In this document: in pieces, positions 16,801-61,527 of the stretch
Layout: each line of letters begins with the position of its first letter
Position numbering within the stretch: the stretch's first letter is position 1
From: Aurantiochytrium sp. KH105
Taxonomy: Eukaryota > Sar > Bigyra > Thraustochytrida > Thraustochytriidae
Assembly (NCBI GenBank): GCA_003116975.1
Contig: BGKB01000088.1
Location: 124,001 to 188,000, forward strand
Length of the DNA stretch: 64,000 nucleotides
Reading direction: 5' to 3'
Translations under genes and position numbers: made by a program
Notes under the pieces: model-generated
What the model was told of the DNA's origin: nothing
Database searches by the model: none
What the model saw: only the letters and a program-made list of their open reading frames with translations

Positions 16801-19800
16801 CGAGGATTTCCAGCAGCTCATCATTTGCAAGAAAGTAGAAGCGCGGAAAGGCCGCGCGCTTGGTTTCGAGGTAGTCCTCGAGGCTCTTTTGAATTTTGTC
16901 AAGCGTCTCGTTGCAATTTTTGAATTTGTCACAAAGACCCGCCAGTGTGCACGCTTTCAGCGAATTTGGGTCGTCCGAGGTTCGCTTCATGTGAGCCTTC
17001 CAAAAGGTGTCTACCGCAAAGAATTTTTTGGACTCAACCGGGAGCTGGCGCTGGATATCCGGCGCCGAAAAAATTGTCTCAAGGTACATCCACCCGCGTT
17101 GGCAGACAAGCCACTCGTCAAGGGTCTCCTGAAAGGTGACGAGCTTTTTGCGCCACGACTCGACAACATCCTTGATACCGGCAACGTAACGGGAACCCAT
17201 GATGGTGCTGATGGTAACGAGGGAATCGTCGAGATTTGTCACGATCTCCTCGACGCTTCCGAGAATGTAAACGTCCTTTTGCTCCTTGTAGTTCTTGAGC
17301 TCGAGCTCTGAGGTACGCCATACATCCTCAATTTTAGTCAACATGGCCTCGAGCACCATTTCCTGCGCGGCAGCCACGGCGATGCCTTGGATTTCTTCCT
17401 CGAATTGACCAATTTGATTCTCCATGAGCTTGCCAAGCGTGAAGCCTTCGACGTTCTTGATCTCGTATCCGACGAGGTCGTGAATCTTCTTCCAGTGTCG
17501 CTCCTGCAGAGAGTCGGAACAAAGGGCCACAATGACGGGGAGGGTGATCTGCACGTGATTGACCGCGTCCTTGAGGCTTGGACCCGAGGTCGAGTTGGGA
17601 AGCCCTCGAATAGCCTTGAAGGCGATCTTGTTGTGCACCTTGACCTGCTTGTCCATCTCTTCAGCGTCGAGATCTTTGAATTCGGTGTTCATCCATTGCT
17701 GCAAGAGCGTGGACCACGACTTGATGCCAGTCCAAAGATCGTACTTGACCTTGAGGTCTTGGACAACCTCGTCGAGAACCTCGAATTCGGACACCTCGAG
17801 GTCTAGGTAGGACTGGTTGCTCTGCAAAACTTCGATTTCTGTGCGGATGCGTTCCAGCTTGTCGTTTTGCGTGGTCATGTACGTCACCATCTCCTCCATG
17901 TCGGCCCCGGCGTCTTCGATGCCCGGATGGTCGAGGGTTTCGCGCAATGCTGTGATATCCTTTTGCACCTTGGGCACCTGGCTGCTAATGAGTTTGATAA
18001 ATTTGGCCGTGTCTTCTTCCTTGCGAGCCTCGCATGCCTCGACGGTGGACGTCAAGTCGTTGAGCTGATCCGTGATCATGCGCATGTGCGCGACTTCCTG
18101 CTCGGGGACAGGCCACTTGTGGCGTTCCAAAATCATCGCGAATTGTTTAATGTGACTGGAGCGGTCGCCGAGATCCTTGAGGAGATCAGCGGCGATGGCA
18201 AGGAATTTACACTTTGTCGTGAATTCCGCCACGGTCGTCGGCTCGAAGGCGGCCTTGGCCATGTTTGTGGCAATATCCTCGAGCAGTTCCTTTGACTCGA
18301 CGTTCATGATTCCAGGAATAACCTCCTTGATGGCCATGAGGCACTTGTACGGGCTTGGCAAGAGCATCTTTTTCAAGGCACGCGAGTTGACCTGCATGAT
18401 ACCAATATCCGCCGAGATGGGAATGCCACCGAACTCGTTTTCCTGGTATTTAAACTTTGCAATGAGCTCCTCAAATACGTTGAGCTCCAAAGAGCGAAAT
18501 TCTTGGACCTCGTTCTGCTGCTTGCTAGCATTTTCTTCATAGGTGTCGCGGAAGGGCTCAAACACACGCGCATATTCAAGCGCTTCGTCGACCGCTGCGC
18601 GCAGGTCGTCGAGAATGGTGCGCTTGACATTGGTAAACTCCTTTTGATTGAGGATGATAGAGTCAAGCTCGAGATCATCCCCTCCGCCGCCGCCGTCGCC
18701 ACCGCCTTCGCCGCCCGCGGCTTCGCCTTCCTTATTGGCCACTTGCGTGTACGGCGCGAGTTCTTCGTGAGTAAGAAGTCTATCGGCTGCAGTGAGGACA
18801 CCAACGGCCTCATTGATGGACTCTTCAATGACTCCTTCAAAGACAGCGTAATTGGGCTGCAAAATGAGCGGGGCAGCGTACTTGCGGCGTCGACGCAGGT
18901 CACGTGCTTCGGCTTTACGCTTTTCCCTATCTTCGGGCTCCTCATCCGGGTTTCTTTCGTCCTCCGGGGTCTCGTAGCCGTCTTCTTCGTCTTCACCTTC
19001 TTCGAGCTCTCTCTTCTCCTCCTCGGGGGTTGGAGCCTTGGGTTTCGGGCCAAAGGCAGTATCGACAGAGAAGAGAGGCACGGCTTCCTTGACGCCGCCT
19101 TTCTTTTCGATGACGATCTCCTTCTTCTTTTCCTCAGCGAGGCGCACGATGCGCTTGGGGCGCACTTTGGGATTGACGATCTCCGAAAAGGATCGGGCTG
19201 AGGAGTACGCCATGTCGACAAGGGTCACATTCATTTGAAAGTCAATGAGACGAATGAACTTTGCAAGTTTCTTGCACTCCGTACGAAGAGCGGCGCGCTC
19301 CATAAAGGTCATCTTGTGATCGGCGACGATTTCGTTGTGCTCAAGAAACTCGTCGAGAACATGATCGCAGGCGTCGCGGACAATGCGGCGAATCTCGTCA
19401 GAGACCTCAATGACGGAAAGCTGGAGTTTTTCGCGGTGGGCTCGCTGTGTCTCGCGAAACTCGTCGAGGGTGTAGGTCTTGGAACGGTCTGCACTCACGA
19501 GGCGACGCGCGCCGAGCGAGAGACACATTTGCCGAATCTGCAAGAGCGACTCGCGCAAACGATTGTTGAGGATGAAGAGCTGTTTTTGCAGCACCTCGCT
19601 GCCGATTTTGCGTTTGGCGCCTCGTACGTTGCGCTTCCACATTGTAAAGTTTTTCCAGACGCGGAATCTCGCAAAGAAAGAGATACTCTTCATCTTCGAG
19701 AAGATGCGAAATTCGTGTTCCCAGAGGTCCATGGGGGTAAACTCAGCCTGCGAATCTGTAAAGTGCGTGACGCCCTCGCGGCTCAGGGTAAAGTAGTCTT

Positions 19801-27869: not shown

Positions 27870-28684
27870 TGTGCTGCGAGGGCGTGATGGCGGCGACGCG
27901 GCGCGGAGCGCGAGGATCGCGAACGGCCGGCTGGCTGGCTGAGCACGGAAAGTACTGGCCGGTCCGAGGGGCAAGGAAAAGAGCAACGCCCCCCCCCCCC
28001 CTCGCAGCCGTCCATTCCTTCCTTGGTTCATTGGCCGCCATGCCGGATATCTTACTACGTATCATTAGCCCAGGAGAGGAGTGGTACGGAGCCGGGACAG
28101 GACATCTTGACGCTGCAGCTGGCAGTGGCAGTGGCTGCTGCTGCTGCTGCTGATGATGAGACGGAGACGACGACGACGACAATCCTACGACCAAGCGCAT
28201 GTCGAGGGCGGTGCGTGGCTTGGAAGCAGAGGCGAGGCCATGCATGCGTGCGTGCGTGCACAACAACTAAACTAACGCGAAGAGCGGGTGCAACGTTGGG
28301 TCAGGCCGCCGCGCGGCACAGGCGTGCTCGCCACCGAACACATCACAACGCATCGCATCGCATCGCATCCTTTTTCCCTTTTCCCAGCCGTGACAAATGG
28401 ACTGCGACCACTGCGAGTCGTTCGTTCTTCGTGCGGCTTTCGACCAACCAGCTTTTCTCACCCCCCTCCCCCGATCCCCCACCTTGTCGCCTTTTCGGTC
28501 GAAGAGCGAGCGCGCGGCGCCGAGCGAAAGCCGGAAGGGCCTAGGGACCTCGTAGTGCCCAGCTACCGGAAAACCTGGCGCACCCGTGAGCCAGCCACCG
28601 CCACTCACTGACAGGGAGGCGAGGAGGGGCGAGGCGAGGCTGGCATAGAGGGAAAAGCAGGGAGAGCGAGCGGGCGGGCGCGCG

Positions 28685-28692
28685 ACTATAAG
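28685..28692 (+). promoter_or_regulatory. Candidate TATA box of ornithine decarboxylase
   Basis: The sequence CTATAAG lies about 250 bp before the ATG. Initiation 25-35 bp downstream would give a leader of about 220 nt that is free of ATG codons. No other TATA-like sequence was noticed in the last 300 bp before the gene. Confidence 0.45.
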
Positions 28693-28936
28693 CGAGTAAG
28701 CAGCGAGCGGCGAGACGAGACGAGACGAGACGCAGCCCGGCGCGGCGAGGCAGAGCAGCGAGCGAGCAAACAAACCCGCAACTCGACCGAGCGCCCCGCG
28801 AGACCTCCGCAAAAGCAGCGAGACAAGCACAAGCACAAGCACCAGCACCAGCGCAAGCACCAGCAAGAAGAAGCGCAGCCGGCAGGCTCCGCAAGGAGGC
28901 GCGAAGTACACGCTCTCGGCGGCAGCGCCGATCTCG

Positions 28937-30322
28937 ATGGAAGGGGAGCTCAACGCACGAGTCTGGGCCAGCATCAAGGAAAGAGTAGAACATGGCGAAG
29001 ATGAATCGGCTTTCATGGTCGTGGACCTTGCAGATGTGGACAGCAAGGTGAGGGCCTGGCGCGCGCTCCTCCCTCGCGTGGAGCCCTTCTATGCCGTCAA
29101 GTGCCACGACGACCCGCAGATCCTGCGCCGCCTCGTCAAGCTCGGCGTCGGATTCGACTGCGCCTCCAAGGGCGAGATCGACCTCGTGCTCGAGGCCGGC
29201 GCCAGCCCCGAGGACATCATCTTCGCCCACCCCTGCAAGGCGCAATCGCACCTCCTGCACGCCGCCCAGGTCGGCGCCGAGATGATGACCTTTGACAACG
29301 ACGACGAGCTCTTCAAGATCAAGCGCCACTTCCCCGGCGCCAAGATCCTGCTCCGTCTCCTTCCCGACGACTCGAGCGCCGTCTGCCAGCTCGGCGTCAA
29401 GTTCGGCGCCGACATCAAGGCCGTGCGCGGCCTCATGCAGACTTGCCTCGACCTCGATCTCAACCTCGTTGGCGTCAGCTACCACGTCGGCAGTGGATGC
29501 CAGGACATCGCTGCCTTCTCCGAGGCCGTTCATCTCGCGCGCCGCGCCTTCGACATTGCTGAGGAGCTCGGCATCCAGCTCAGCATCCTCGACATTGGTG
29601 GCGGCTTCCCCGGCGAGTCCGTGCGCCACTGGAAGGCCGCCGCGGCCGCGCGTGAGGCCGCCGAGTTCAACGGCGTCGACGACGACAGCCTCGAGGCCAA
29701 GGGCGACGCCCGCCTCTTCCCGGCGCTTGCCCGCCAGCTCGGCCCCACGCTCGACCAGCTCTTCCCCGCTGAGTCCGGCGTGCGCATCATTGCCGAGCCC
29801 GGCCGCTACATGGTGCACTCCTCCTGCACCCTGGTCGCCAACGTGCTCGCCCGCCGCCGCACCGTTGTGCGCAACACCGAGGTCTTTCGTTACTACATTA
29901 ACGAGGGCGTCTACGGTAGTTTCAACAACATCATCTACGATCACGCCACCGTGCAGGGCTTTCCCCTTCGCGTGCGTGGCCGCCGCCAGGTAGAGCGCGA
30001 GGCACTTCGTCGCAGCGGATCGGGCGAGGACCCGCTCGCTCCGGGCGCCGCCGAGTCGGACTTTAGCGACGACGATGAGGCTGCTGCCGGTTCTTCCTCC
30101 GAGAACGCCGTTGCCTTTGTTGGCGAGGTCGATGGCGAGCAGCTCTGCGAGGGCAGCGTCTGGGGCCCCACCTGCGACGGTCTCGACTGCGTTCTCAAGG
30201 ATTCTTACCTGCCGCGCCTCGAGGTTGGCGACTGGATGTACTTTCCGGACATGGGCGCCTACACCGTCGCCGCTGCCGCCAAGTTTAACGGCTTCGAGAT
30301 CGCCACCAAGGTCTATATCTGA
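28937..30322 (+). CDS. ODC1: Ornithine decarboxylase
   Basis: PLP-dependent decarboxylase converting ornithine to putrescine, the first committed step of polyamine synthesis. The 461-residue protein has the PLP lysine at residue 55 in PFYAVKCHDDP, FDCASKGEI, the HVGSGC loop, the phosphate-binding DIGGGFPG, EPGRYMV, and the catalytic cysteine at residue 413 in GPTCDGLD, where the opposite subunit completes the site in the usual dimer. The frame remains open without an ATG back to a stop at 28697, so 28937 is the first Met; the upstream codons are Ser/Thr repeats and look like leader. An acidic Ser-rich insert of about 30 residues (DFSDDDEAAAGSSSEN) precedes the catalytic Cys region. The protein ends at KVYI without a mammalian-type C-terminal degradation tail. 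Confidence 0.96.
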   Translation: MEGELNARVWASIKERVEHGEDESAFMVVDLADVDSKVRAWRALLPRVEPFYAVKCHDDPQILRRLVKLGVGFDCASKGEIDLVLEAGASPEDIIFAHPCKAQSHLLHAAQVGAEMMTFDNDDELFKIKRHFPGAKILLRLLPDDSSAVCQLGVKFGADIKAVRGLMQTCLDLDLNLVGVSYHVGSGCQDIAAFSEAVHLARRAFDIAEELGIQLSILDIGGGFPGESVRHWKAAAAAREAAEFNGVDDDSLEAKGDARLFPALARQLGPTLDQLFPAESGVRIIAEPGRYMVHSSCTLVANVLARRRTVVRNTEVFRYYINEGVYGSFNNIIYDHATVQGFPLRVRGRRQVEREALRRSGSGEDPLAPGAAESDFSDDDEAAAGSSSENAVAFVGEVDGEQLCEGSVWGPTCDGLDCVLKDSYLPRLEVGDWMYFPDMGAYTVAAAAKFNGFEIATKVYI

Positions 30323-31413
30323 AAAAAAGAAGAGACGCGCATGCCCGCTTTGACAAAACGATGACGATTGCACCTCGTCACCCATCAGTTCGTCAAAAGC
30401 TCGCCTTCTCTACCTCTTCTTTTTTCTCTCACAACCCCGTTCTTTTCTCTTTGCACCACCACCCCACACTAGCAAGCTCTCTTTACTTTCACAAGAAGAA
30501 AGAGCCCCGGTGGAGCTAGTTTTAGCTAGGAGCTAGCAAACGACGCGCCCGGACGCGAGCTCGTCGTTCTGATTACGTGACTATGTATACCACTTAGAAA
30601 ATAAAATGCTTTTCAAGTTCTCATCTCAAGTCGATTGGTGTCGTACTCACAGTGTGGTATCTTTGGTGCCGAGGCGGCCGATCCTTTTGGACGGATTTTG
30701 ACTCAATCTCGCCTCTGTCCCGAGTCACACCTATGTCCCTGGCAGCGGGACTAGTATCGTTCTGGCCCATGTTCTTTCTATCCACCTCACTTGCAAACGA
30801 AAGCGAAAGTCTCGCGACTGTCCCGCATTGCACAAAGTCCTGACATTGGGACTACGAATTTCTCCCCCACTTAGGTTGCCTCACTTGCAGACAAAGAATT
30901 TTGGGCAATCAAGATTCTATGGCCAACAAAATGATTTCGATCCGATATACATCTCCTCAAGGCCCACCAGACCTCTTTATATGACCTCGTCGTGTAAAAT
31001 AACAGCACCATTCTCCTCTCTCTCTCTCTCTTTCCCTCTCTCTGGTTGCCTTTCTTTTTGTGATTGTCGTCATTGGACAAAGTTATGAAAATCTTGCAAC
31101 AGGTTCGAGTACACTAGGCCTACGGAAAGTGAGCATTGTGGGATGAGGGAACTGACACTTGGCTAATCAACCATCCAACCAACCAACTAGCAAGTAGACA
31201 GATGGAGTGAGTCACTGTGACGTGTTGGGGATCACTTAAATTTACACCGTGACGCAGCAAACGCTCGAACGTGTTGGTAAAAAGGAGGCTTTGCTCGTGC
31301 GTGTTCGCTCACTGCAGGTCCGAATCTTCTTCGGAAGAGAGTGCGCGGCTTCCCCGTCCTTGTGCTTGAAGCTAGTTAGCTAGCAAGGTTAGGGTAGCTT
31401 AGCTCAGCTTCGC
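30323..31413. other. Convergent intergenic region after ornithine decarboxylase
   Basis: The region contains a polyadenylation-type AATAAA at 30600-30605, about 280 bases after the ornithine decarboxylase stop, and a (CT)n run near 31017-31032. The rest shows no gene, tRNA or repeat that I can support. The opposite end is the 3' flank of ARL3. Confidence 0.55.
30600..30605 (+). terminator. AATAAA polyadenylation-type signal (ornithine decarboxylase)
   Basis: Perfect AATAAA hexamer in AT-rich sequence about 280 bases downstream of the stop codon. Assigned by position only. Confidence 0.4.
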
Positions 31414-49676: not shown

Positions 49677-52600
49677 ATGGGCCGCATGCACCAGAGGCTC
49701 GCGCCTGCCGCGCAATGGCTGCAGGAAGTGCGGCAAGACTTTGGCCGTCCAGGACTTTCAAACCTAGTGCTCTCGGGGATCATCAATGGCCTCCTCATGT
49801 TCGTCTTTTGCTGTGTCTTCGCCGTCCTTGTATTTCAGGACAAGCGTGATGATAGCACCGTCCTCAAAGACTTTCTGCCCGTCGGCGTGTCCATGCACAT
49901 CTTCTCCGTCATGATGGGAAGCATCTTTTACGCTTGCTTCACGAGCTGCAAGGCTTCCATCGCTGGCCCCGACATCAATCCAGCGCTCTTTTTTGCCCTC
50001 ATCGTCGAGTCCATCCAGCTCGGCGCCGACTCGCAAAACCCTACGCCTGTAGAGGCAATCCTACCAACCTCGCTGCTGGCCATCTGCATCGGGACCATCC
50101 TCATCGGCGTCACCTTTCTCACGCTCGGACACTTCAAGCTCACGCGTATCGTGCAGTACCTGCCAGCCTCGCTCCTCAATGGTTTCCTCGCCTGCATTGG
50201 TTACAAGGTCATGAAGGCCGCCCTGACCACCACGTGCGGCGATATCTACTACAAGAAGCCTGGCAAATTCATCTTTTGGAAACTCATGCTGCCGGCGCTA
50301 CCCGTAGGCTTTGGCTTGTACTTGGCCAAGGCATATCACATTGGCCAGCCCGGTGTAACATTCCCCGTCATCTTGCTCGTGCCGCTGGGCCTCTTTTACG
50401 CTGCGCTTGTCATCTCTGGAACCTCGCTCGAGCAAGCTCGAGACCAGTGTCTCGACGTCGAGTCGAGCGCCTCTTGCGCAGGCGGGTGGTTCTACCCTGA
50501 GTTTGGTAGGGGCGAGTTCGGCGCCGTGTACAGTACGCTGGATCTTGCACACGTCGACGTGGGCGCCTTACTGTACTCTTTTAGCGACCTTCCGGCCATG
50601 CTGCTCATCGTTGTCATTGACTACTTGCTCAAGCTTGCGGGCACGAAAAAGGCCGTAGGTTTCGACTTTCCCTTTGACAACGAGATGAAGACGGCCGGTA
50701 TGGCGTGCTTGGCCAGCGCTGTCGGAGGCTTTAGCCCGCCGGCGTATTCGCAGACCAAGTTCACGGTGTTGAACATTGGCATCACTCACAATCCAGAGAG
50801 CCGCGTACCCGGTATCGTGACGGGTCTGTTCAACGCAGTACTGTACTTTTGGGGCTTTCCGCTGATCAACTATCTTCCTCGCTTCTTCCTCGGCGGCTTG
50901 CTCATCTACGCTGGTCTCGGCTTCGTGGTGGACAATCTGATCAAGAGCTGGAATCGCGTCTCGCGCGAGGAGTTCATGGCGATCTGGACGATTGTGATCG
51001 TGAATGCGGCAACAAGTCTGCTGGTTGCTGTGGTGGTGGGCATTATCTTGTCAGCCATCATCTTTGCAATCGCGTACGGGCGCATCAGTGTTGTCAAAGC
51101 ATTTATACCTGGAGAGGCTTACGAATCACATGTCGTTCGAAACATTCTAGATTCGGACAAGATTGCCCATGTCGCTCAGCGATATGCAATCGTGCAAATG
51201 CAAAACTACATTTTCTTTGGATCAGCAGGCCAGATTTTAGACTTTGTAAAGGTCATCTTTCGCGCTGAGCAGTCGAAAAGACATGTTTTGCGTCTACAGT
51301 ACCTCATCTTCGACTGGACGCACGTGTACGGTATCGACTACAGCGGCCTTGGCGTCTTTCTTGATATCATCAACATGGTCAAGAGAAAGAACGTCAACAT
51401 TGTGTTTACTGGCGTCGATGCGCCCATTTTGAATTCAATGCTACGCGAGAATCTTGTGCAGCACGTTGCAGGTATCTACAGCTCACTCGATCAGGGCGCC
51501 GAGTGGATCGAAGAGCAGCTGCTTGAATGGGCACATCTTGTTCGCTCGCGATGGCTTGAGTTTCGTCCTGTCATAAAAATGCACGAACGAGCGAAAAATA
51601 AAGCCATCTATGATGTATTTGGCCAAATCGTGAACAAGCACGACTATGGCCGAATCATTGGAGATGCCACGAAACGTCGGGTACTGAGCAAAGATGAAGT
51701 TCTCTGTGAAATCGATGATGTCGCGACCGCCATGTACATTGTGCAGCAGGGTAAGCTCGCATCATATAAACGCGATGGCGCTGGTAAGCTCGTTCGTGTC
51801 GGCTCGTACGCTAGGGGCGCGTACATTAACGAAATGGCGATCTTCTCCTCGGCCAAGCTTCAACATCGAGTTGTCGCTGAGGGGCCATCTGGTACCATTG
51901 TGCTGGAGCTCAGTGCTGATACCTGCCGAAGACTAGAAGCGGAACGCCCGGACGTCCTTGCTGAGCTGCAACGAACGATTCTCAGGTACTATCGCCAACA
52001 TGGAATTAAAGCTGAGCGCAAAGATCAGATTCACAATGCGAGGCAGAACCTCAAGCAATTGATGGCCTTTCACGCTAAAGGTCTGCACACACAGGGTGCA
52101 GCGGGCTTGAACATTTTGCCGAGAGGACTGCAGTCGGAAGTTTCCGAGGAAGACCTTGACGCATCAAACGAGAATGGCGAGGCCTACATGAGAAACAATG
52201 GCTCAATTGAGAGCGACGAGAGCATCCCCACCTTGAATGGTCTCCAGGGTAGATCAGGCGAGTCTCAGCGAGGAGATGAGCAGCGTAAGTCTGGGCGCAT
52301 CAGTGATTGCAATGCAATCACGAAGAAAGCAAATCTACGCAAAGTTTCACCTTACCTCGAATCTCAGGGCGATGGCGCGCTGGTCCTTTCCAGCGACAAC
52401 AGCTTGGAAGCCTCCTTCAGGGCCGTGTCTGGAGCGACATCGCGGACGACAATCACAGACCCTGTCCCAGGCGAGGTGTCCCGGCATATGGAAGCACTCA
52501 CCACGGGCGTTGCTCTTGTGCACGCTGCACTCAAACTGACAGATGAGCAAACATCAACCCCTCTACGAAACGTGCTTCGACACTGGACGGAAGATCGAAC

Positions 52601-55364
52601 TCTCAGCGATATGGGGCTTTCACGCGAGACGCAATATCTATTCGGCTCCAATACAGTCGCTCAGCTCGCGAACACCAGCGACGCAGCGCCGATACGAACC
52701 TTCAATCAGTCGCTGCAACTTTCCTCTACGGGGATGCTATGTCTGAGCCCTGAGCGCATCAAGGCCAGCATGGACTGTTTTCGCGCGCAAGATACGCGAG
52801 GCGCGCAAAGGCTCGACACTAAACAAGTCCTTGACGCACTCCAAAAACTTGGCCATCACATCAACGAGAGAGACTTGGCAATACTCCTCGCCCTCGATGC
52901 ACATGGAGACTTACACGTCGCGGACGAAAGCAATCATGGCCTCCTCAAGTCGCGCACGCCAATCCTCACGCTTTTGCGCGACCACAGTGCGCACACTTCG
53001 ACACGGCATGTTGACAGCGCAGAGATCAAACGAGAATCACAGATCGAGCTCATGAGTACCATGCTGCGCTCAACGGCGTTTTTCCCTGTTCTGGAGAGCT
53101 CCAATGAGGGATTTACAAGTGCGACCGCGGAACGCTCCGAGATCCTCATTTTTCGCCGCGAAGAAGCCCTATGCATGGAAGGGAACCCGGTGAACAGCAT
53201 GTTTATCATCCTCGACGGAGTCCTATCCGTCACACAAGGCGACACGACACGAACAGTTCATGTGTCACACTCCCCATTTGTAATTGGGGCCGACACCATA
53301 CTGCATCCTGGCACCATTCCGCAGCACGCAATCTCGGCAACAGTCGTCTCACAGCGAAGCATCGCAATTGAGATTTTGCGATCCACGCTGCTAGATCTCC
53401 TCCCTGTCACGGATCCGACTTTGCGCACCGAACAGAAGAAAGCCGTGCGTCGTGCTGAAATCCAACGTGAAACCGCGCGCAAGGCGAAATCCTCTTCGGG
53501 ATCAGTTCGCCGCATCGAATCTGTTCTCGCGCAGCAGCAGAAGGCAACCTTTGGTGAGCGCTACCGCGCTTTGGCTAGCGTTGATCTCTTCAAACCTGTC
53601 GCTGAGCAAGACCCTTCGCTTATCTCGCGCCTTGCATCGGGGTCCGAGGTCATCGTTTTCCATGAGGGTCAGTCCATCTATCTTCGAGGTGCAACAGCCA
53701 ATGCAATTTTTGTTGTCATATCGGGCGCGGCTCGCATTGAGCAACCGTCTCAAACAGAAGAAAATCCTAGAACGCTTGCTGAACTCTCGGTCTCAAACGG
53801 GAAAACGGAAAGAGCCTTTGTGCTCGGTCAAGCAGAGTTTTCCAATGGCACGGCTAGCTACGAAGACGATGCAATCTGTGCGTCGGAAACAATGGTCGCG
53901 CTCAAGCTGTCACGTGGCTCGCTGCGGAATTCGTTTGAGGAAACGCATCCAATCTGGGAGGTCTTTCAAGATAACGCTCAACGCGGCAACAACAGGGCTT
54001 CGAGAGCGCGAATGGCCGCAAAACTGGGGAATATCCGGCAAAAGACACTGCGGATGATTCGATCTCCTTCGACGCGAAGACCTTCTGACGATTCAACACA
54101 CCAGGGTTCTGGCAAGTTTGCAAGTGCAAAGGAATCCAAGAGCAAACGCAAGGGTTATAAAAACGAGCTTCGTCGCATCATGTCTTCGCCTAATGTGGCT
54201 GGAGCAGTTTCCCCGCAAAGTCCACTCTCACCTCAACAAAAAGGACAAGTTGACGCACAATCTCCGAGCATCAATCAAGGTGTCCGTGGCAACCACGATC
54301 TCAGCAACAACAATAGCAACTATGAAAAGGATAGGGACAATGGCATTGACATTGACAATGGCAATGACCATGACAACAATAGCAATGACACCAGCAATGA
54401 TGATAGCAACAACAGCAAGAACGAAGACAACGTCGAGCAAACGATGCCTATGACGCAGCATGTCCATCGAGGCACGGAGGTAGAGCTCTTCCAGTTCCTA
54501 AACCTCGTCACGCGACTGAGCCTCTATCCGCTATCGTCAGGTCAAGTGTCAGCCCTTTCTAAGCTCTTCAAAATGTATGCGAGCTCTCTACTTTCCAGAA
54601 GCAAAACGAGCAGTCCCGGCGACAAGGACATTCTCGACATTGAAGCCGGTCAAGACGGAAATGAAAAACACGGAGAAGCAATCTGCGTCATCACCAGAAA
54701 GAAACTTCGCAAACTTTTTGAAGACGCAGAGCTGCAGGTCCTCTGCCACAACATTGATGTAGTCCTCCAAGAATGGGCTTCTGAAGACGCTGATGTTCCA
54801 GCTCTTACTTTGCAAAGTTTCGTCTCGGTGATAGCACTCGACGTGCAGAACGAACAAACTCTACTCGAGGTTGAGTCGGTCTACAAGACCATTCTGGGCT
54901 TTCACGACCAGCGAGACGGAGCTGTCGCCGCCTTTGTCGATTCGTGGACGCCGGAGACAGGCCATGGTATGTCTATCTCAGAGAAGTGGGAGCTTGTCAC
55001 GAATACATTTGATCTGGGCATTACATCGCGAGATATCCAAGAATGCTGGAAGCGTTTCATCGATGCTGAGATATCCTTTGAAGCGGCGGAAGAAATGGTT
55101 TTCGAGGCGGATCTCGGTGGCGCGGGCTACATTACCTTTCAAGAATTTGTCGACGCCGTCGAATTCGTCCATCCCATAGAGCTGACATCTTCTATGGCTG
55201 ACATTGTCATGCTTCAGAGGCAAATTAAGCAGGCAAACTCTCCAACCGCGAGTCTTACTCGAATGTTCAGGGGCTCAAACCGACGCGGCAGTGTGTCCCG
55301 GGCTCTCCTTGCCACTGCAGGACCCCTCTATAAGAGAACCAATAGTTCCCTCGATCATAAATAA
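49677..55364 (+). CDS. SulP (SLC26-like) transporter with STAS, three cNMP-like domains and EF-hand-like segments, copy 1
   Basis: A 1895-residue, intron-free frame from ATG 49677. Residues 25-480 are the SulP membrane domain (about 12-14 helices; QYLPASLLNGFLACIGYKV, GGFSPPAYSQTKFTVL). Residues 505-610 are a STAS domain (YLIFDWTHVYGIDYSGLGVF). The first cNMP-like domain (about 650-780; MYIVQQGKLASY, GAYINEMAIF) has no cassette Arg. Two more lie near 1136-1250 (MFIILDGVLSV) and 1300-1430 (IFVVISGAARIEQ). EF-hand-like segments are near 1030-1080 and in the last 250 residues (EMVFEADLGGAGYITFQEF). An Asn/Asp-rich stretch occupies about 1540-1590. SulP-STAS-cNMP proteins include yeast VSB1 (YGR125W), tied to vacuolar basic amino acid storage; substrate and ligand here are unknown. 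Copy 2 follows in tandem. Confidence 0.9.
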   Translation: MGRMHQRLAPAAQWLQEVRQDFGRPGLSNLVLSGIINGLLMFVFCCVFAVLVFQDKRDDSTVLKDFLPVGVSMHIFSVMMGSIFYACFTSCKASIAGPDINPALFFALIVESIQLGADSQNPTPVEAILPTSLLAICIGTILIGVTFLTLGHFKLTRIVQYLPASLLNGFLACIGYKVMKAALTTTCGDIYYKKPGKFIFWKLMLPALPVGFGLYLAKAYHIGQPGVTFPVILLVPLGLFYAALVISGTSLEQARDQCLDVESSASCAGGWFYPEFGRGEFGAVYSTLDLAHVDVGALLYSFSDLPAMLLIVVIDYLLKLAGTKKAVGFDFPFDNEMKTAGMACLASAVGGFSPPAYSQTKFTVLNIGITHNPESRVPGIVTGLFNAVLYFWGFPLINYLPRFFLGGLLIYAGLGFVVDNLIKSWNRVSREEFMAIWTIVIVNAATSLLVAVVVGIILSAIIFAIAYGRISVVKAFIPGEAYESHVVRNILDSDKIAHVAQRYAIVQMQNYIFFGSAGQILDFVKVIFRAEQSKRHVLRLQYLIFDWTHVYGIDYSGLGVFLDIINMVKRKNVNIVFTGVDAPILNSMLRENLVQHVAGIYSSLDQGAEWIEEQLLEWAHLVRSRWLEFRPVIKMHERAKNKAIYDVFGQIVNKHDYGRIIGDATKRRVLSKDEVLCEIDDVATAMYIVQQGKLASYKRDGAGKLVRVGSYARGAYINEMAIFSSAKLQHRVVAEGPSGTIVLELSADTCRRLEAERPDVLAELQRTILRYYRQHGIKAERKDQIHNARQNLKQLMAFHAKGLHTQGAAGLNILPRGLQSEVSEEDLDASNENGEAYMRNNGSIESDESIPTLNGLQGRSGESQRGDEQRKSGRISDCNAITKKANLRKVSPYLESQGDGALVLSSDNSLEASFRAVSGATSRTTITDPVPGEVSRHMEALTTGVALVHAALKLTDEQTSTPLRNVLRHWTEDRTLSDMGLSRETQYLFGSNTVAQLANTSDAAPIRTFNQSLQLSSTGMLCLSPERIKASMDCFRAQDTRGAQRLDTKQVLDALQKLGHHINERDLAILLALDAHGDLHVADESNHGLLKSRTPILTLLRDHSAHTSTRHVDSAEIKRESQIELMSTMLRSTAFFPVLESSNEGFTSATAERSEILIFRREEALCMEGNPVNSMFIILDGVLSVTQGDTTRTVHVSHSPFVIGADTILHPGTIPQHAISATVVSQRSIAIEILRSTLLDLLPVTDPTLRTEQKKAVRRAEIQRETARKAKSSSGSVRRIESVLAQQQKATFGERYRALASVDLFKPVAEQDPSLISRLASGSEVIVFHEGQSIYLRGATANAIFVVISGAARIEQPSQTEENPRTLAELSVSNGKTERAFVLGQAEFSNGTASYEDDAICASETMVALKLSRGSLRNSFEETHPIWEVFQDNAQRGNNRASRARMAAKLGNIRQKTLRMIRSPSTRRPSDDSTHQGSGKFASAKESKSKRKGYKNELRRIMSSPNVAGAVSPQSPLSPQQKGQVDAQSPSINQGVRGNHDLSNNNSNYEKDRDNGIDIDNGNDHDNNSNDTSNDDSNNSKNEDNVEQTMPMTQHVHRGTEVELFQFLNLVTRLSLYPLSSGQVSALSKLFKMYASSLLSRSKTSSPGDKDILDIEAGQDGNEKHGEAICVITRKKLRKLFEDAELQVLCHNIDVVLQEWASEDADVPALTLQSFVSVIALDVQNEQTLLEVESVYKTILGFHDQRDGAVAAFVDSWTPETGHGMSISEKWELVTNTFDLGITSRDIQECWKRFIDAEISFEAAEEMVFEADLGGAGYITFQEFVDAVEFVHPIELTSSMADIVMLQRQIKQANSPTASLTRMFRGSNRRGSVSRALLATAGPLYKRTNSSLDHK
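50595..51067 (+). repeat. 473-bp tract identical to copy 2 (56842-57314)
   Basis: Reading base by base, this stretch of SulP copy 1 shows no difference from 56842-57314 in copy 2, including all third codon positions. It begins just after a G/A difference at 50594 and stops abruptly at 51067, inside the last membrane segment, where the copies diverge. It sits within a longer region of high identity that starts near 49770. Confidence 0.85.
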
Positions 55365-55905
55365 GAAGCCTATACCTATACAAACAATCGTGCGCGCAAT
55401 ATCATTCATACACGACCATGCCTGCCTGCTGTCCGTTGTCCTGGGCTGTACATAATTGGCATACCTAGCTTTGCGCTACAGCAAAATTCTTCTATCTGCG
55501 ATATAACATGGCACCACGAGCGCGCAACAGCGCTGACGCGGCCGAAGCTCGAGTAGGCCTCTTCTTCGCCGGTGCGGTACCCCAAGCCTCTAACCCTAGA
55601 GGCGTGGTGTGCCACAGTGGCGCACAGTGGCAGCCTGCTCAAGCTACTACTAGTACTACCAGAAGTAGCGTAACCGTCATAAAACAAAAGTGCATACATG
55701 TACGTTAGCCATCTCCCACTCAGCCACTGTCAGTATTTAGCTCACCACTTGGCGGAGGCGTCTACGCAGCCCCATTGCCAGTGCGCCGCGTGTCTGTCTG
55801 TCAGCTAGGCCATGACTCACAGAGGCAACGTGGTAATTGGGAAAAGCAAAGCCGTGCGAAAGCAAAAGGCTCGCTCTCGGGCCACCGAGGAGAGCAGCGA
55901 CGAGG
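55365..55905. other. Intergenic region between the tandem SulP genes
   Basis: 541 bases, not visibly related to the DNA before copy 1. An ATG at 55812 opens a 95-codon frame that runs into the copy 2 coding region in a different reading frame. It may be an upstream frame or a sign of an unrecognised short intron. No other gene. Confidence 0.5.
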
Positions 55906-58900
55906 ATGGCACAAGCCTCGACGCCATGGCCCTCACGCGCGGGCAGCATAGCAAAATACCTGCGCAGGGCACTAAAAGGATCAGACTTGCATGGATCAGG
56001 ACTACTGACCTTGGTGCTCTCGGGGATCATCAATGGCCTCCTCATGTTCGTCTTTTGCTGTGTCTTCGCCATCCTTGTATTCCAGGACAAGCGCAATGAT
56101 AGCACCGTCCTCAAAGACTTTCTGCCCGTCGGCGTGTCCATGCACATCTTCTCCGTCATGATGGGAAGCATCTTTTACGCTTGCTTCACGAGCTGTAAGG
56201 CTTCCATCGCTGGCCCCGACATCAATCCAGCGCTCTTCTTTGCCCTCATCGTTGAGTCCATCCAGCTCGGCGCCGACTCGCAAAACCCTACGCCTGTAGA
56301 GGCAATCCTACCAACCTCGCTGCTGGCCATCTGCATCGGGACCATCGTCATCGGTGTCACCTTTCTCACGCTCGGACACTTCAAGCTCACGCGCATCGTG
56401 CAGTACCTGCCAGCCTCGCTTCTCAATGGTTTTCTCGCCTGCATTGGTTACAAGGTCATGAAGGCCGCGCTGACCACCACGTGCGGCGACATCTACTACA
56501 AGAAGCCTGGCAAGTTCATCTTTTGGAAACTCATGCTGCCGGCGCTACCCGTGGGCTTTGGCTTGTACTTGGCCAAGGCATATCACATTGGCCAGCCCGG
56601 TGTAACATTTCCCGTCATCTTGCTCGTGCCGCTGGGCCTCTTTTACTCTGCGCTTGTCATCTCTGGAACCTCGCTCGAGCAAGCTCGAGACCAGTGTCTC
56701 GACGTCGGGTCGAGCGCCTCTTGTGCAGGCGGGTGGTTCTACCCTGAGTTTGGCAGGGGCGAGTTCGGCGCCGTGTACAGTACGCTGGATCTTGCACATG
56801 TCGACGCGGGCGCCTTGCTGTACTCTTTCAGCGACCTTCCAGCCATGCTGCTCATCGTTGTCATTGACTACTTGCTCAAGCTTGCGGGCACGAAAAAGGC
56901 CGTAGGTTTCGACTTTCCCTTTGACAACGAGATGAAGACGGCCGGTATGGCGTGCTTGGCCAGCGCTGTCGGAGGCTTTAGCCCGCCGGCGTATTCGCAG
57001 ACCAAGTTCACGGTGTTGAACATTGGCATCACTCACAATCCAGAGAGCCGCGTACCCGGTATCGTGACGGGTCTGTTCAACGCAGTACTGTACTTTTGGG
57101 GCTTTCCGCTGATCAACTATCTTCCTCGCTTCTTCCTCGGCGGCTTGCTCATCTACGCTGGTCTCGGCTTCGTGGTGGACAATCTGATCAAGAGCTGGAA
57201 TCGCGTCTCGCGCGAGGAGTTCATGGCGATCTGGACGATTGTGATCGTGAATGCGGCAACAAGTCTGCTGGTTGCTGTGGTGGTGGGCATTATCTTGTCA
57301 GCCATCATCTTTGCCCTCACGTACGGTCGAATCGGGGTGGTCAAGGCATATTTTCATGGATGCGACTACGAGTCCAAGGTTGTTCGAAGCGTAAAGGACG
57401 CCTCCAAGCTGACTCATCTGAGCAAAAGGTACGCGATCGTGCAAATGCAAAACTACATTTTCTTTGGCTCGGCAGGGCAAATTCTCGACTTTACGAAATC
57501 TCTGCTCGCGGAACAGGCTCAAGTGACGCGTATGGGACGAGTACGCTACCTCATCTTCGACTGGACGCATGTGTACGGTATCGACTACAGCGGCCTTGGC
57601 GTCTTTATTGACATTGCAAATGTCTTGAAAAAGCACGAGGTCATGTTTGTTTTCACCGGCGTCAAGGAAAACATCATTCGCAGCATGTTGCGAGAAGGTA
57701 TTCTCCAGCACGGTGCAGCAGTTTTTGATCATCTCGATCTTGGCGTTGAGTGGATCGAAGAGCAGCTGCTTGAATGGGCACATCTTGTCCGCTCGCGATG
57801 GCTCGAATTTCGGCCTGTTGTCAAGCTCCATGACCTTGCAAGAAATAAAGCCAAGCACGATGCTCTGGAAGAGATTCTTAAAGACACCGGATTTGGAAAT
57901 GAGCTCTGGCGTTTCGTGAAACGCGTCGTCATTGCCAAGGGCGAGACGCTGTGCGAGCCCGGCAAACCTGCGGAATCGCTCTACATTGTGCAGCAAGGAA
58001 AATTTTCCTCTGTTTTTGCAGACGCTAATGGCAATGTGCGCAAAATTCGATCGTATGCTCGAGGTGCGTACATTAACGAGATGGCAGTCTTCACGACAGC
58101 CCCGCAACAGCACAAAATTATCGCAGATACAGAAAATTGTGCGGTCATTGTCATGACGCAGTACGAGATTTCGCGCCTTCGCGCCTCGCGACCTAACATC
58201 TTCATGGCTCTACAGCAGACGATTCTGCGCCACTACTGGCAGAGTAATCTTAAACTTGAGCGAGAAATCTCGGACTTTGAGCAGTTTGCACCGCTCCCGG
58301 GGGATCTGAGGCAGCAGGACTCATACGACGCCGAAGCGAGCGCATCTGTCAAGTCTCGCTCTGGCAAATTGGCGAAAAAGTCATCCTTGCTGAGTCGCGG
58401 ATCATCTTTTGTTTCTCATCTCTTTATGATGGGCGGGCTTTCAGCATCAGCGGCGGCGCCTGATAGGGGTTCTTTGATCGGATCATCGACACATATTCCG
58501 AGCGCCGCAAACATGATGGCGAGTTTCCGAGGCTCGCAAAAAAAGGCAATGCAAGCCTATAACGGATCGGAAGCAAGCTCAGTCCATGTTGAGGAAGCCG
58601 GGCTTGCCTTTCTGCATGCGGCCATCAATCTCATCCAAAAGGACTCCGAGCGCTGGCTTATCCAAGACGAGCTCCTTGGTGCTGGACTCACCAATAAAGT
58701 TTCTACAGGGACGACCCTCAACGTCCTCTTTGAAGGATTTTCTTCCGAGATCGAACTTCTTCACGGCAAAGCAGGCATCGTCCGGCTTCAAGCATATACC
58801 GACGAAGTGCATAATGCAGAAGCCGTAGAACGCCCTGCGCGCATTTGCGAGGACGAGGAGGACCTCTGCGCAGAAAGCACGAGCCTGGGGCCAGAGAAAA

Positions 58901-61527
58901 GTACCCGCGCCGAATCAGTCGATGAAACAAGCTCAAACGTGACGGCCATCAAGACATGGGAGGAAGCGGTTTGTTGCAAACTCAGCAAAAAGGTCGAGGC
59001 GGAGTGTCGCGCCGTATTCCAGACTTATGCGAGCCAAAACGAAGACGGGAAAGTTCTTGTCACGCAGGTCATTCAAATGCTGCAAGACACCGGGCACTAT
59101 CTCAGCCAGAAAGAAGCAGCTCTTATCATGCACGGTCGGAGTTGGTCGGCCTCCTCTGGGGACACGAGCTCCATTGCGGAGAATCCGCAAATGGAATTTA
59201 TGTCTCTCCTGCGAGGCGTTGAGAAGGAAGACCTTACTCGGCACATTGACACTGCAAAAATATCTCGTGCCAAGCAGCTCGAGTTCGTCAAGCTCTTTCT
59301 TTCGAACACTGCCGTTTTCGCGGATCTTGAACTGTCGATTCCGGGAATCATCTCTGCAGTGGCCGAACGTTCCGAGCTGCTCGTCTTTCATCAAGGCGAG
59401 TGTGTTTGCGCCGAATCTGCCCCCGTAAATAGCATGCTCATTGTTGTCGACGGTATGATTACCGTACGCAAGGGCACGACAAAGCGAACAATGCACGCCT
59501 CACAGAGCCCCATTATCTTCGGCGAGGATCTGGTCTTCCTCCCTGTCAAGGAGGTTGGTACATTTTCTTCCTCTGCAGAAATTGCATCGACTCACGCAGT
59601 GGTCATCGAGGTCTTTCGCCACGTTTTGCAGCGCGCAGTCCCGCAAGAACACTCCAAGTCGAGGCAATTACAAAATCGCGCGATTCGGCTAAAGATCCAA
59701 CAAGAATCACGGTATCAACTGCCTTCCGTACGCAAAGTCCTGCCCGTCATTCGTCAGCAGCAGCGAGCTCCTTTTGGGGCAAGGTATCGTGCTCTCGCTT
59801 CCGTCGACCTCTTCAAGGAGAGTGTTCAGGCGGATCCGTACCTCATTTCGCGTGTCGCTGCTGAAACGGAGCTCATCACCTTCAATCAGGACGAGTTTGT
59901 CTTTCGACAAGGCGATGTTGGTGACTTTTTGCTGGTTGTAGTAGCTGGAGACATCAAGGTAAGAATCCGACACGACAACGGCGTGTCACATACACACACC
60001 ATTCATTTCAATGAGTCTAAAGGCGGATATGTTCTCGGCGAGCTAGCATTTTACACGCGCAGACACGAACGTACCGCAGATGCCATTGTTCACTCGGAGA
60101 CGCTCATGGCGCTTAAAATCTCCCGATCCTCGCTTCAGTCCATCTTTGAGTCATCGCACAGTATATGGGCTCTCATCCGTGATCGAGCTCATAAGTTCAA
60201 TCATATCAATGAGGAACTCCCTTCCGTGGGCGTCAGTGCCAGGCTCAAGCAGATTGGTGCTCAAACCTATCGTCGGCTAATCAACAACAACAACACCAAC
60301 AACATCAACTCGTCCGCAAAGTCCCCCGCCGAAATCGGCGACAACGCAGCACCTCCGGGAAGCTCGGTGTCGAGCGCTAATATTGAGCAAAGTGATACTG
60401 GTAACTCGAGCATCTTTCGAGCCATTAGCGCTGAATCTGAGAAAAGGAATCGAGACATGCAAAGGACCACGTCTCAGAGTAGCCAAGGAACTGTCTCGGA
60501 GGCAGACTTTCTCAACATCGTGTCCATGCTCACGTTCTATCCGCTGTCTCTCAAGCACGTGGGCACCATTCGCAAGGTCTTTGAGCTTTACGCAACAGCT
60601 CCATTGCACCGGCACAGACACATTTACGGCAAGGGATCGCTTGCAAGTGCAGAGGACTTGTATCCTGAGGGCTGCATAACACTCTCCAATCTTTCCTCAA
60701 TGATCGAAGATGCAGGACTTGTACTTCACGATAAAGTGCTTGCTCATGTCATGGACGAGTGGAAAATTACTGATGCAACTGGATACCTTGAGCCCGCCAT
60801 CTCTTTCACGAGCTTACTGTCTATCATTGCTGCTGCTGTGAAAAGACAGCGATTGCTTCTCGAGGTCGAGACAATCTTCAAGATTATCTTAGCAAACGAT
60901 GAGGTCATGGGCCCGAGACTTAAAAAGGGACTGCAAAATGTGGAAAGTCGCGCGGTTCCGACGGATCAAAAGTGGAGGCGACTTGCTGCAAAGAAAATCG
61001 GAATTACCCCGGAGATTCTCCGCGGTGCATGGCTCGAGTTTCTTGATGTTGATCTTAGCCCTGAGGCTGCCGAGGAGATGATATTTGAAGCGGACGAGTC
61101 AGAAAACGGGTTTGTCTCCTTTGGAGACTGGCTTGATTCTATCCACAGCGTCTACCAGATCGAGGTCGAGGGCACAGACAACTTCACGGTGTTCGAGACT
61201 AAGATGATGGGACTCGACCGTACAATCAGTACAGATCTTCGTCGCGACGACTCCGTCTCCTTTTCAACCTCATTTCAGAATGCAGTACCAATATCACGTT
61301 CCGAATATCTCAAGACGAGCGGAAGCGACAGCTTCTCAGGTTCCACGTTGGCTACTTTCGGCAAGCGCATTGCGAGTCTTGGGCCAGGCATTTTGAACGA
61401 TACTAAAAATATCGTTGCTTCGGCACGTCGGAGCTCCAGGACGCGTGTAATTCCCGAGCCCGCCAGACCCGAAGGCATGGCCAAGCAACGCGTCTCCTCG
61501 GCACCTTTTACATCACCCAATTTATAG
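55906..61527 (+). CDS. SulP (SLC26-like) transporter with STAS, cNMP-like domains and EF-hand-like segments, copy 2
   Basis: About 1873 residues from the first in-frame ATG, 55906; the frame is open upstream to a TTG at 55837. The architecture matches copy 1: SulP membrane domain, STAS (YLIFDWTHVYGIDYSGLGVF), cNMP-like domain (LYIVQQGKFSSVF, GAYINEMAVF), a linker with an EF-hand-like helix, two more cNMP-like domains (MLIVVDGMITVRK; FLLVVVAGDIKVRIR with a complete-looking GGYVLGELAFYTR), an Asn-rich stretch (INNNNTNNINSS) and a terminal EF-hand-like segment (EMIFEADESENGFVSFGDW). The membrane part is almost identical to copy 1 in DNA, whereas the regulatory tail is only moderately similar in protein. 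Inference: the same transported substrate under different regulation. The N-terminal 30 residues are unrelated to copy 1 at DNA level. Confidence 0.88.
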   Translation: MAQASTPWPSRAGSIAKYLRRALKGSDLHGSGLLTLVLSGIINGLLMFVFCCVFAILVFQDKRNDSTVLKDFLPVGVSMHIFSVMMGSIFYACFTSCKASIAGPDINPALFFALIVESIQLGADSQNPTPVEAILPTSLLAICIGTIVIGVTFLTLGHFKLTRIVQYLPASLLNGFLACIGYKVMKAALTTTCGDIYYKKPGKFIFWKLMLPALPVGFGLYLAKAYHIGQPGVTFPVILLVPLGLFYSALVISGTSLEQARDQCLDVGSSASCAGGWFYPEFGRGEFGAVYSTLDLAHVDAGALLYSFSDLPAMLLIVVIDYLLKLAGTKKAVGFDFPFDNEMKTAGMACLASAVGGFSPPAYSQTKFTVLNIGITHNPESRVPGIVTGLFNAVLYFWGFPLINYLPRFFLGGLLIYAGLGFVVDNLIKSWNRVSREEFMAIWTIVIVNAATSLLVAVVVGIILSAIIFALTYGRIGVVKAYFHGCDYESKVVRSVKDASKLTHLSKRYAIVQMQNYIFFGSAGQILDFTKSLLAEQAQVTRMGRVRYLIFDWTHVYGIDYSGLGVFIDIANVLKKHEVMFVFTGVKENIIRSMLREGILQHGAAVFDHLDLGVEWIEEQLLEWAHLVRSRWLEFRPVVKLHDLARNKAKHDALEEILKDTGFGNELWRFVKRVVIAKGETLCEPGKPAESLYIVQQGKFSSVFADANGNVRKIRSYARGAYINEMAVFTTAPQQHKIIADTENCAVIVMTQYEISRLRASRPNIFMALQQTILRHYWQSNLKLEREISDFEQFAPLPGDLRQQDSYDAEASASVKSRSGKLAKKSSLLSRGSSFVSHLFMMGGLSASAAAPDRGSLIGSSTHIPSAANMMASFRGSQKKAMQAYNGSEASSVHVEEAGLAFLHAAINLIQKDSERWLIQDELLGAGLTNKVSTGTTLNVLFEGFSSEIELLHGKAGIVRLQAYTDEVHNAEAVERPARICEDEEDLCAESTSLGPEKSTRAESVDETSSNVTAIKTWEEAVCCKLSKKVEAECRAVFQTYASQNEDGKVLVTQVIQMLQDTGHYLSQKEAALIMHGRSWSASSGDTSSIAENPQMEFMSLLRGVEKEDLTRHIDTAKISRAKQLEFVKLFLSNTAVFADLELSIPGIISAVAERSELLVFHQGECVCAESAPVNSMLIVVDGMITVRKGTTKRTMHASQSPIIFGEDLVFLPVKEVGTFSSSAEIASTHAVVIEVFRHVLQRAVPQEHSKSRQLQNRAIRLKIQQESRYQLPSVRKVLPVIRQQQRAPFGARYRALASVDLFKESVQADPYLISRVAAETELITFNQDEFVFRQGDVGDFLLVVVAGDIKVRIRHDNGVSHTHTIHFNESKGGYVLGELAFYTRRHERTADAIVHSETLMALKISRSSLQSIFESSHSIWALIRDRAHKFNHINEELPSVGVSARLKQIGAQTYRRLINNNNTNNINSSAKSPAEIGDNAAPPGSSVSSANIEQSDTGNSSIFRAISAESEKRNRDMQRTTSQSSQGTVSEADFLNIVSMLTFYPLSLKHVGTIRKVFELYATAPLHRHRHIYGKGSLASAEDLYPEGCITLSNLSSMIEDAGLVLHDKVLAHVMDEWKITDATGYLEPAISFTSLLSIIAAAVKRQRLLLEVETIFKIILANDEVMGPRLKKGLQNVESRAVPTDQKWRRLAAKKIGITPEILRGAWLEFLDVDLSPEAAEEMIFEADESENGFVSFGDWLDSIHSVYQIEVEGTDNFTVFETKMMGLDRTISTDLRRDDSVSFSTSFQNAVPISRSEYLKTSGSDSFSGSTLATFGKRIASLGPGILNDTKNIVASARRSSRTRVIPEPARPEGMAKQRVSSAPFTSPNL
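56842..57314 (+). repeat. 473-bp tract identical to copy 1 (50595-51067)
   Basis: Second member of the identical tract; it ends at the codons for IIFA of the final membrane helix. Flanking high identity extends left to about 56017. Confidence 0.85.

Follow-up and report, generated by a model that had tools for sequence, protein, structure and literature searches.

Domain-limited gene conversion in a tandem pair of predicted SulP-STAS transporters with diverged cyclic-nucleotide-binding tails

How do two neighbouring genes come to share a membrane domain that is nearly identical at the DNA level when the sequence on both sides of it has diverged to saturation or close to it? The window (the whole 64-kb stretch of DNA that was analysed) is part of contig C88 of an assembly of 76.0 Mb in 367 contigs and contains such a pair, referred to here as A and B. 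Very probably, an old tandem duplication gave rise to two giant SulP-STAS transporters with cyclic-nucleotide-sensor tails, and ongoing conversion limited to one domain would have left what is likely to be one transporter with two differently regulated tails.

Gene pair and domain layout

A and B lie in tandem on the forward strand, both as long uninterrupted frames of about 1,880 residues each. The genes and their best-delimited domains are as follows.

49677..55364, + strand: gene A, with a SulP membrane domain, a STAS domain, three cNMP-binding stretches and a C-terminal EF-like region (open reading frame and Pfam; 1895 residues, no stop)
55906..61527, + strand: gene B, architecture as gene A (open reading frame and Pfam; 1873 residues from the first in-frame ATG)
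51171..51491, + strand: STAS domain of A (PF01740, E 4.5e-11)
57430..57708, + strand: STAS domain of B (PF01740, E 1.2e-10)
51678..51935, + strand: first cNMP-binding domain of A, the best of its three stretches (PF00027)
57925..58179, + strand: first cNMP-binding domain of B, the best of its three stretches (PF00027)

The first in-frame ATG of gene B is at 55906 (55837 is TTG). Scores for A and B respectively are 59.9 and 60.0 bits for Sulfate_transp (PF00916, cut-off 23.2), 42.9 and 41.6 bits for STAS (PF01740, cut-off 22.6) and 82.7 and 99.1 bits for cNMP_binding (PF00027, cut-off 27.5), the last with three stretches per protein, of which the best has a Pfam position and the others were placed on the A/B alignment. 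An alignment-based profile finds prestin, AtSULTR4;1 and pendrin, with matches that run from the later membrane segments on into STAS. By their membrane and STAS domains, both proteins are classed as SLC26/SulP proteins with a predicted transport function. Membrane topology was taken from the hydropathy profile only, set beside the 14-helix 7+7 SulP fold.

Elsewhere in the window lies another cyclic-nucleotide gene (3970-7188, + strand). Its 1072-residue product combines a metallo-beta-lactamase-type domain with a cNMP-binding one, and we take it to be reminiscent of the cyclic-nucleotide-stimulated phosphodiesterases of Dictyostelium. An uninterrupted frame on the − strand (7892-20629) encodes a dynein heavy chain of 4,245 residues, in which the motor, the stalk and the C-terminal domain are all recognised; together with the long open frames of the window, it may point to a flagellated protist, perhaps a thraustochytrid. 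An ornithine/arginine-type decarboxylase gene (28937-30322, + strand) has a long open frame, 28541-30385, on the opposite strand. The Rfam scan gave no matches at gathering score and a tRNA scan of the 64-kb window found none.

The membrane-domain block on two haplotypes

Aligned in register (offset 6247), A and B have no clear similarity up to about 49750, are 98.0% identical over a 1,300 bp block that covers the membrane domain, and diverge abruptly from 51068 onwards.

49768..51067, + strand: homogenised block in A (residues 31-464, membrane domain), with 26 differences in 1300 bp from B and no site diagnostic of A versus B in four copies
56015..57314, + strand: homogenised block in B (register offset 6247), equivalent to C88:180015-181314
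50595..51067, + strand: 473 bp identical in A and B of this haplotype, with 11 sites where both jointly differ from the other haplotype

An earlier, sequence-only reading of this DNA had placed the start of near-identity at about 49770 and a collapse of similarity at a single point. The start lies 2 bp earlier, at 49768, and near-identity does end at one point, 51067. The same reading had described 473 bp as identical even at silent sites, and the count over 50595-51067 is indeed 0/473 differences, compared with 26/827 bp over 49768-50594 (Fisher P 1.05e-5). Synonymous divergence, which it had proposed to follow along the genes, is far from smooth: it is low in the block and near or at saturation on both sides. 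From 51068 on, STAS dS is about 1.5, and most later parts of the tail are saturated, with dS not computable. Nonsynonymous change is rare inside the block. The last identical codon is residue 464 and the last hydrophobic segment spans residues 432-479 (hydropathy, 19-residue window), which would put the downstream edge in or just after that segment, toward its end by eye.

The pair is present again on contig C59, where 16.6 kb of the fetched stretch align at 95.2% identity; gene A there is 97% identical, and the frames of both genes are open. Three other SulP-cNMP loci also occur twice, their copies being 94.2, 93.9 and 96.3% identical over the main piece of the alignment, and the assembly seems to hold two haplotypes or homeologs, with C88 and C59 carrying alleles or homeologs of the pair. 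A search of the genome with the block DNA returned at least four full-length copies, plus 120 bp at 76% in each copy of a third paralogue described below.

Every aligned variable coding site was classed among the four copies, A1 and B1 on C88 and A2 and B2 on C59. Inside the block there are 46 variable sites: none separates A from B, 15 are within-haplotype (A and B alike on each haplotype), 2 are trans (A1=B2, A2=B1) and 29 are singletons (B1 19, A1 5, A2 3, B2 2). Outside it, the 2,252 variable sites comprise 1,979 that separate A from B, 7 within-haplotype, 1 trans, 151 singletons and 114 with at least three states. The A-versus-B sites that border the block, 49766 and 51068, are the same on both haplotypes.

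A1 equals B1 at 14 consecutive variable sites, 50663-51048 (0/50,000 permutations), and A1-B1 dS in the last part of the block is 0.009, owing to a single difference in the codon that crosses the edge. Over 50595-51067, allelic dS is 0.112 for A1-A2 and 0.122 for B1-B2. A2-B2 dS in the three parts of the block is 0.000, 0.017 and 0.035, whereas alleles differ by 0.11 over the tail. Along part of their length, the two paralogues therefore resemble each other more than each resembles its own allele, the pattern of concerted evolution. Run tests were not significant for A2-B2 (P 0.82, where nearly all sites agree), B1-B2 (0.14) and A2-B1 (0.20).

Within-haplotype sites cannot come from one ancestral conversion, and so require either conversion after the haplotypes split or parallel mutation; the latter is rare, since only 7 such sites occur outside the block. 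Conversion acted after the haplotypes split, on both of them and with the same block edges. The site patterns thus bear out the repeated conversion that had been proposed from one haplotype, whilst its proposed purpose, that of holding the transporter constant, has the standing of an inference only.

The part of the block upstream of 50595 carries the trace of another kind of exchange.

50100..50594, + strand: tract in which A1 equals B2 at 21 consecutive variable sites and B1 is mostly the odd one out (0/50,000 permutations; site list)

The zone of scattered differences noted earlier is real, but it is not a simple older tract, as A1 equals B2 throughout the variable sites of 50100-50594. Over 50108-50594, A1 and B1 differ at 18 sites, at 17 of which B1 alone deviates, and A1-B1 dS in this 4% zone is 0.126, which resembles the allelic value (0.11 over the tail). 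Polishing or error correction could exaggerate the run of 21 sites and the 0/473 identity, but the contrast of the block with its flanks would stand. The tract in A is a probable inter-haplotype conversion with A1 as recipient. The donor was probably B2, because A1 differs from A2, but not from B2, at 50100, 50195, 50222 and 50288; transfer in the opposite direction, from A1 into B2, is not favoured, as it leaves the match of A2 unexplained. A1 also equals A2 at 12 consecutive variable sites, 50306-50663 (P 0.00024), a sign of inter-haplotype exchange. The segment 49768-50107 is a finer mosaic. At least three exchanges seem to be needed: one within haplotype 1, one within haplotype 2 and one between them.

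These patterns are consistent with a process in which gene conversion between the neighbours repeatedly overwrites the 1.3 kb membrane-domain block, independently on the two chromosome copies and with one or more exchanges between them. The remainder of A and B would have diverged until conversion was no longer detectable, save in three short islands in the STAS region.

51189..51220, + strand: STAS island 1, a 9-codon identical run between A1 and B1, with no A-versus-B diagnostic site between 51188 and 51221
51300..51367, + strand (57547-57614 in B): STAS island 2, YLIFDWTHVYGIDYSGLGVF, from codon runs, with no A-versus-B diagnostic site
51501..51541, + strand (57748-57788 in B): island 3, WIEEQLLEWAHL, just after the STAS match, identical in A1 and B1 (codon runs and four-copy sites)

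Near-identical islands in the tail had been noticed from the letters of A1 and B1, and both are present: 51300-51359 has one mismatch and 51501-51541 none. Across the A1-B1 tail, 447 conserved residues are degenerate, and the same codon is used in 185 of them, where codon usage predicts 162. Runs of 17 codons (51459-51539), 12 codons (51324-51359) and 9 codons (51189-51218) are the longest, with P values of 1e-4, 5e-5 and 5e-5 (20,000 permutations). The A2-B2 tail has 451 such residues, with 180 identical codons against 160 expected. Its longest run is 21 codons, 51300-51365 (0/20,000 permutations), while its second and third runs, of 8 and 7 codons, reach only P 0.012 and 0.007. The three islands thus exceed chance, although the overall excess of codon identity is modest. 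STAS island 2 has within-haplotype sites at 51311 and 51335, and 51296, close by but outside the island, is another. The probability of three such sites within 39 bp is 0.0076, which gives moderate support to the conversion of tracts of about 70 bp as well, such as 51300-51367. Longer stretches that lack A-versus-B sites occur at 54098-54165, 54308-54363 and 54443-54492; they were set aside, as few codons align in them.

Diverged tails and competing explanations

Allelic dN/dS is 0.02-0.12 in STAS, in the three cNMP-binding domains and in the C-terminal region of both genes, and higher in the linkers (0.10-0.49). Values for A and B respectively are 0.39 and 0.11 in the middle EF-like segment and 0 and 0.32 in the last residues. 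The low values in the regulatory domains show that both tails are maintained under purifying selection. Differences between the tails are found in the third cNMP domain and at the C-terminal end.

53826..53867, + strand: third cNMP domain of A, ligand-cassette position GQAEF...SYED, without Glu and Arg (alignment, by eye)
60037..60078, + strand: third cNMP domain of B, ligand-cassette position GELAF...ERTA, with Glu and Arg (alignment, by eye)
55110..55145, + strand: C-terminal EF-like loop of A, DLGGAGYITFQE (weak: calmodulin match E 0.0013; Pfam below cut-off)
61093..61128, + strand: C-terminal EF-like loop of B, DESENGFVSFGD (weak: troponin C match E 0.12)

The Glu and Arg of the cNMP ligand cassette contact the ligand. 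The difference between A and B at the third domain is the same in both haplotypes. A search of the PDB with the third domain of B gave 21 sequences at E 0.01 or better, multi-domain chains first, with best values of 2.7e-6 for a whole multi-domain chain and 1.9e-4 for the best chain with a stretch passing alone; for the third domain of A, the best PDB value is E 0.07. B thus appears to keep the predicted ligand-contact motif and A to have lost it. In the first cNMP domain of both proteins, NE is present with no Arg at the usual place (by eye).

At the C-terminal end, A reaches 14.9 and 13.3 bits against Pfam EF-hand cut-offs of 30 and 25.4, and B has no match at E 0.1. Loss of the EF-hand in A alone was considered but is not claimed: the loop residues of A look weaker, yet its calmodulin match (E 0.0013) is better than the best EF match of B (0.12).

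A third SulP-STAS-cNMP paralogue, with one match per contig on C31 and C14 (L011, L012), provides a baseline. Its membrane domain, STAS, first cNMP domain and C-terminal EF-like region align with those of A and B, and it shares the GPDINP motif in the third membrane segment; it differs in that it is not homogenised, has one Pfam cNMP match, and the regions of cNMP domains two and three are either absent from it or poorly aligned. Identities to A and B respectively are 45% and 45% in the membrane domain, 34% and 41% in STAS and 26% and 25% in the first cNMP domain, compared with 99, 61 and 40% between A and B. From the 45% in the membrane domain, A and B would be expected to differ strongly there without conversion. 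GC3 is 0.73-0.74 in the block, 0.53-0.59 in the tails and 0.54-0.65 in the short N-termini, and 0.66/0.64/0.64 along the third paralogue. Long-running GC-biased conversion would fit this contrast without being proved by it: relative to the third paralogue, the block is raised and the tails are lowered by about the same amount. Two more SulP-STAS-cNMP genes, on C77/C57 and C48/C242 (L013-L016), have GQVQDA instead of GPDINP in the third membrane segment, as read from one aligned copy of each gene, and may or may not form a second substrate group.

The explanations that compete with domain-limited conversion linked to two regulatory outputs can be set against these results. It is quite possible, if somewhat short of an even chance, that conversion is real but neutral, persisting wherever the genes stay alike, and that the membrane/STAS boundary has no functional meaning. 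The equal edges on both haplotypes suit a limit set by homology, and the STAS islands sit on strongly conserved residues. The position of the edge at residue 464, near the end of the last hydrophobic segment, speaks against neutrality, as do the separate constraint on the tails and their different ligand cassettes, though neither observation amounts to proof of selection. A more specific functional reading, which we offer tentatively and consider rather doubtful, is that selection keeps the transport cores identical by continual conversion in a "paired transporter", with the same solute and shared dimers, one tail having kept cyclic-nucleotide sensing and the other having lost it; the edge would then fall at the membrane/STAS junction as converted tails are selected against.

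One event that preceded the split of the haplotypes, either a conversion or the transfer of the membrane-domain segment into a neighbour already diverged, with ordinary mutation since then, would account for edges that are equal on both haplotypes (last A-versus-B site 49766, first 51068). On this account the block should contain some A-versus-B sites and hardly any within-haplotype ones; 0 and 15/46 are observed. Such an event may explain how the block was founded, but not its present state; as the sole cause it is improbable, and the four-copy site patterns contradict it.

Still less probable is an artefact of assembly or polishing that copied one repeat onto the other. Consensus errors do occur in near-identical repeats, but two contigs carry the pair with different block alleles and with unique flanks on both sides of both genes, the block is present in at least four full-length copies, otherwise with just the 120 bp match in the third paralogue pair, and an artefact cannot make 98-99% identity out of saturated divergence. 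The mis-assembled repeat against which the sequence-only reading had warned is not what the second contig reveals, with its same edges and different homogenised alleles.

An account without any conversion, in which extreme constraint on the protein together with its codons or RNA keeps the membrane-domain DNA alike, and to which the rarity of nonsynonymous change in the block and its high GC3 might point, has next to no probability and is ruled out by the allelic synonymous differences (A1-A2 dS 0.112, B1-B2 0.122) where A1 and B1 hardly differ, which indicate that block sites are free to change, and the third paralogue has diverged to 45% in this domain. Unequal crossing-over is also unlikely, as both haplotypes retain two genes with unique flanks on both sides.

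Under the preferred explanation of tandem duplication with ongoing domain-limited conversion, the outcome would be one transport activity joined to two different regulatory tails. A and B may carry the same solute under different signals, possibly as mixed dimers, which could form because SulP proteins are dimers (PMC13160679).

Known systems and significance

cNMP-binding domains share the general fold class of the RmlC-like jelly roll. In yeast, Vsb1 (YGR125W) is described as having a SulP membrane domain, STAS and a cytosolic RmlC-like jelly-roll domain whose truncation gives the deletion phenotype (PMC13160679, PMC7440668), and the first of these states that it moves cationic amino acids (PMC13160679). 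Vsb1 resembles A and B in its order of SulP membrane domain, STAS and cytosolic jelly-roll-type domain, and differs in having one such domain in 1,036 residues compared with three cNMP stretches in about 1,880. A has N37 and M41 in its first membrane segment and D99 in its third, positions that are not equated with Asp-223, Tyr-227 and Glu-278 of Vsb1, and a substrate assignment from the Vsb1 residues was considered and dropped.

LtnT is a cyanobacterial SulP-STAS-cNMP protein, as cited in PMC13160679. Among prokaryote genomes, 82 stretches match and two loci were retained, one of which (L017, from Cyanobacteria bacterium FACHB-502) spans the protein, the other being L018. L017 matches residues 20-768 of A (25% in the best segment), which by the extent of the alignment comprises the membrane domain, STAS and first cNMP domain; at 742 residues it is too short for any counterpart of cNMP domains two and three or of the C-terminal extension in A and B. 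Among viral contigs, 61 stretches match a pattern and none encodes a relative. None of the open-licence papers among the matches listed, most of them represented by a title and the start of an abstract, describes such a transporter pair.

The closest evolutionary parallel would be the paired receptors Siglec-11 and Siglec-16, in which repeated gene conversion is reported to keep the ligand-binding halves alike whilst signalling differs (PMC5701461). As in A and B, one half is kept alike by conversion and the other halves have diverged, and in A and B the shared half and the diverged halves are both present in one genome. The systems differ in that the Siglec case concerns an extracellular lectin domain in primates, with several species and glycan-binding assays (PMC5701461), whereas A and B concern the membrane domain of a predicted protist transporter, known from the sequence of one genome.

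Domain-limited conversion that combines a shared recognition half with differing outputs is already known from vertebrate immune receptors (PMC5701461). The comparison of two haplotypes makes the conversion process testable within one genome. If the reading of A and B as one transporter with two regulatory tails is true, this protist pair would extend the same evolutionary design to membrane transport, and one solute pathway would be wired to two control inputs without drifting apart.
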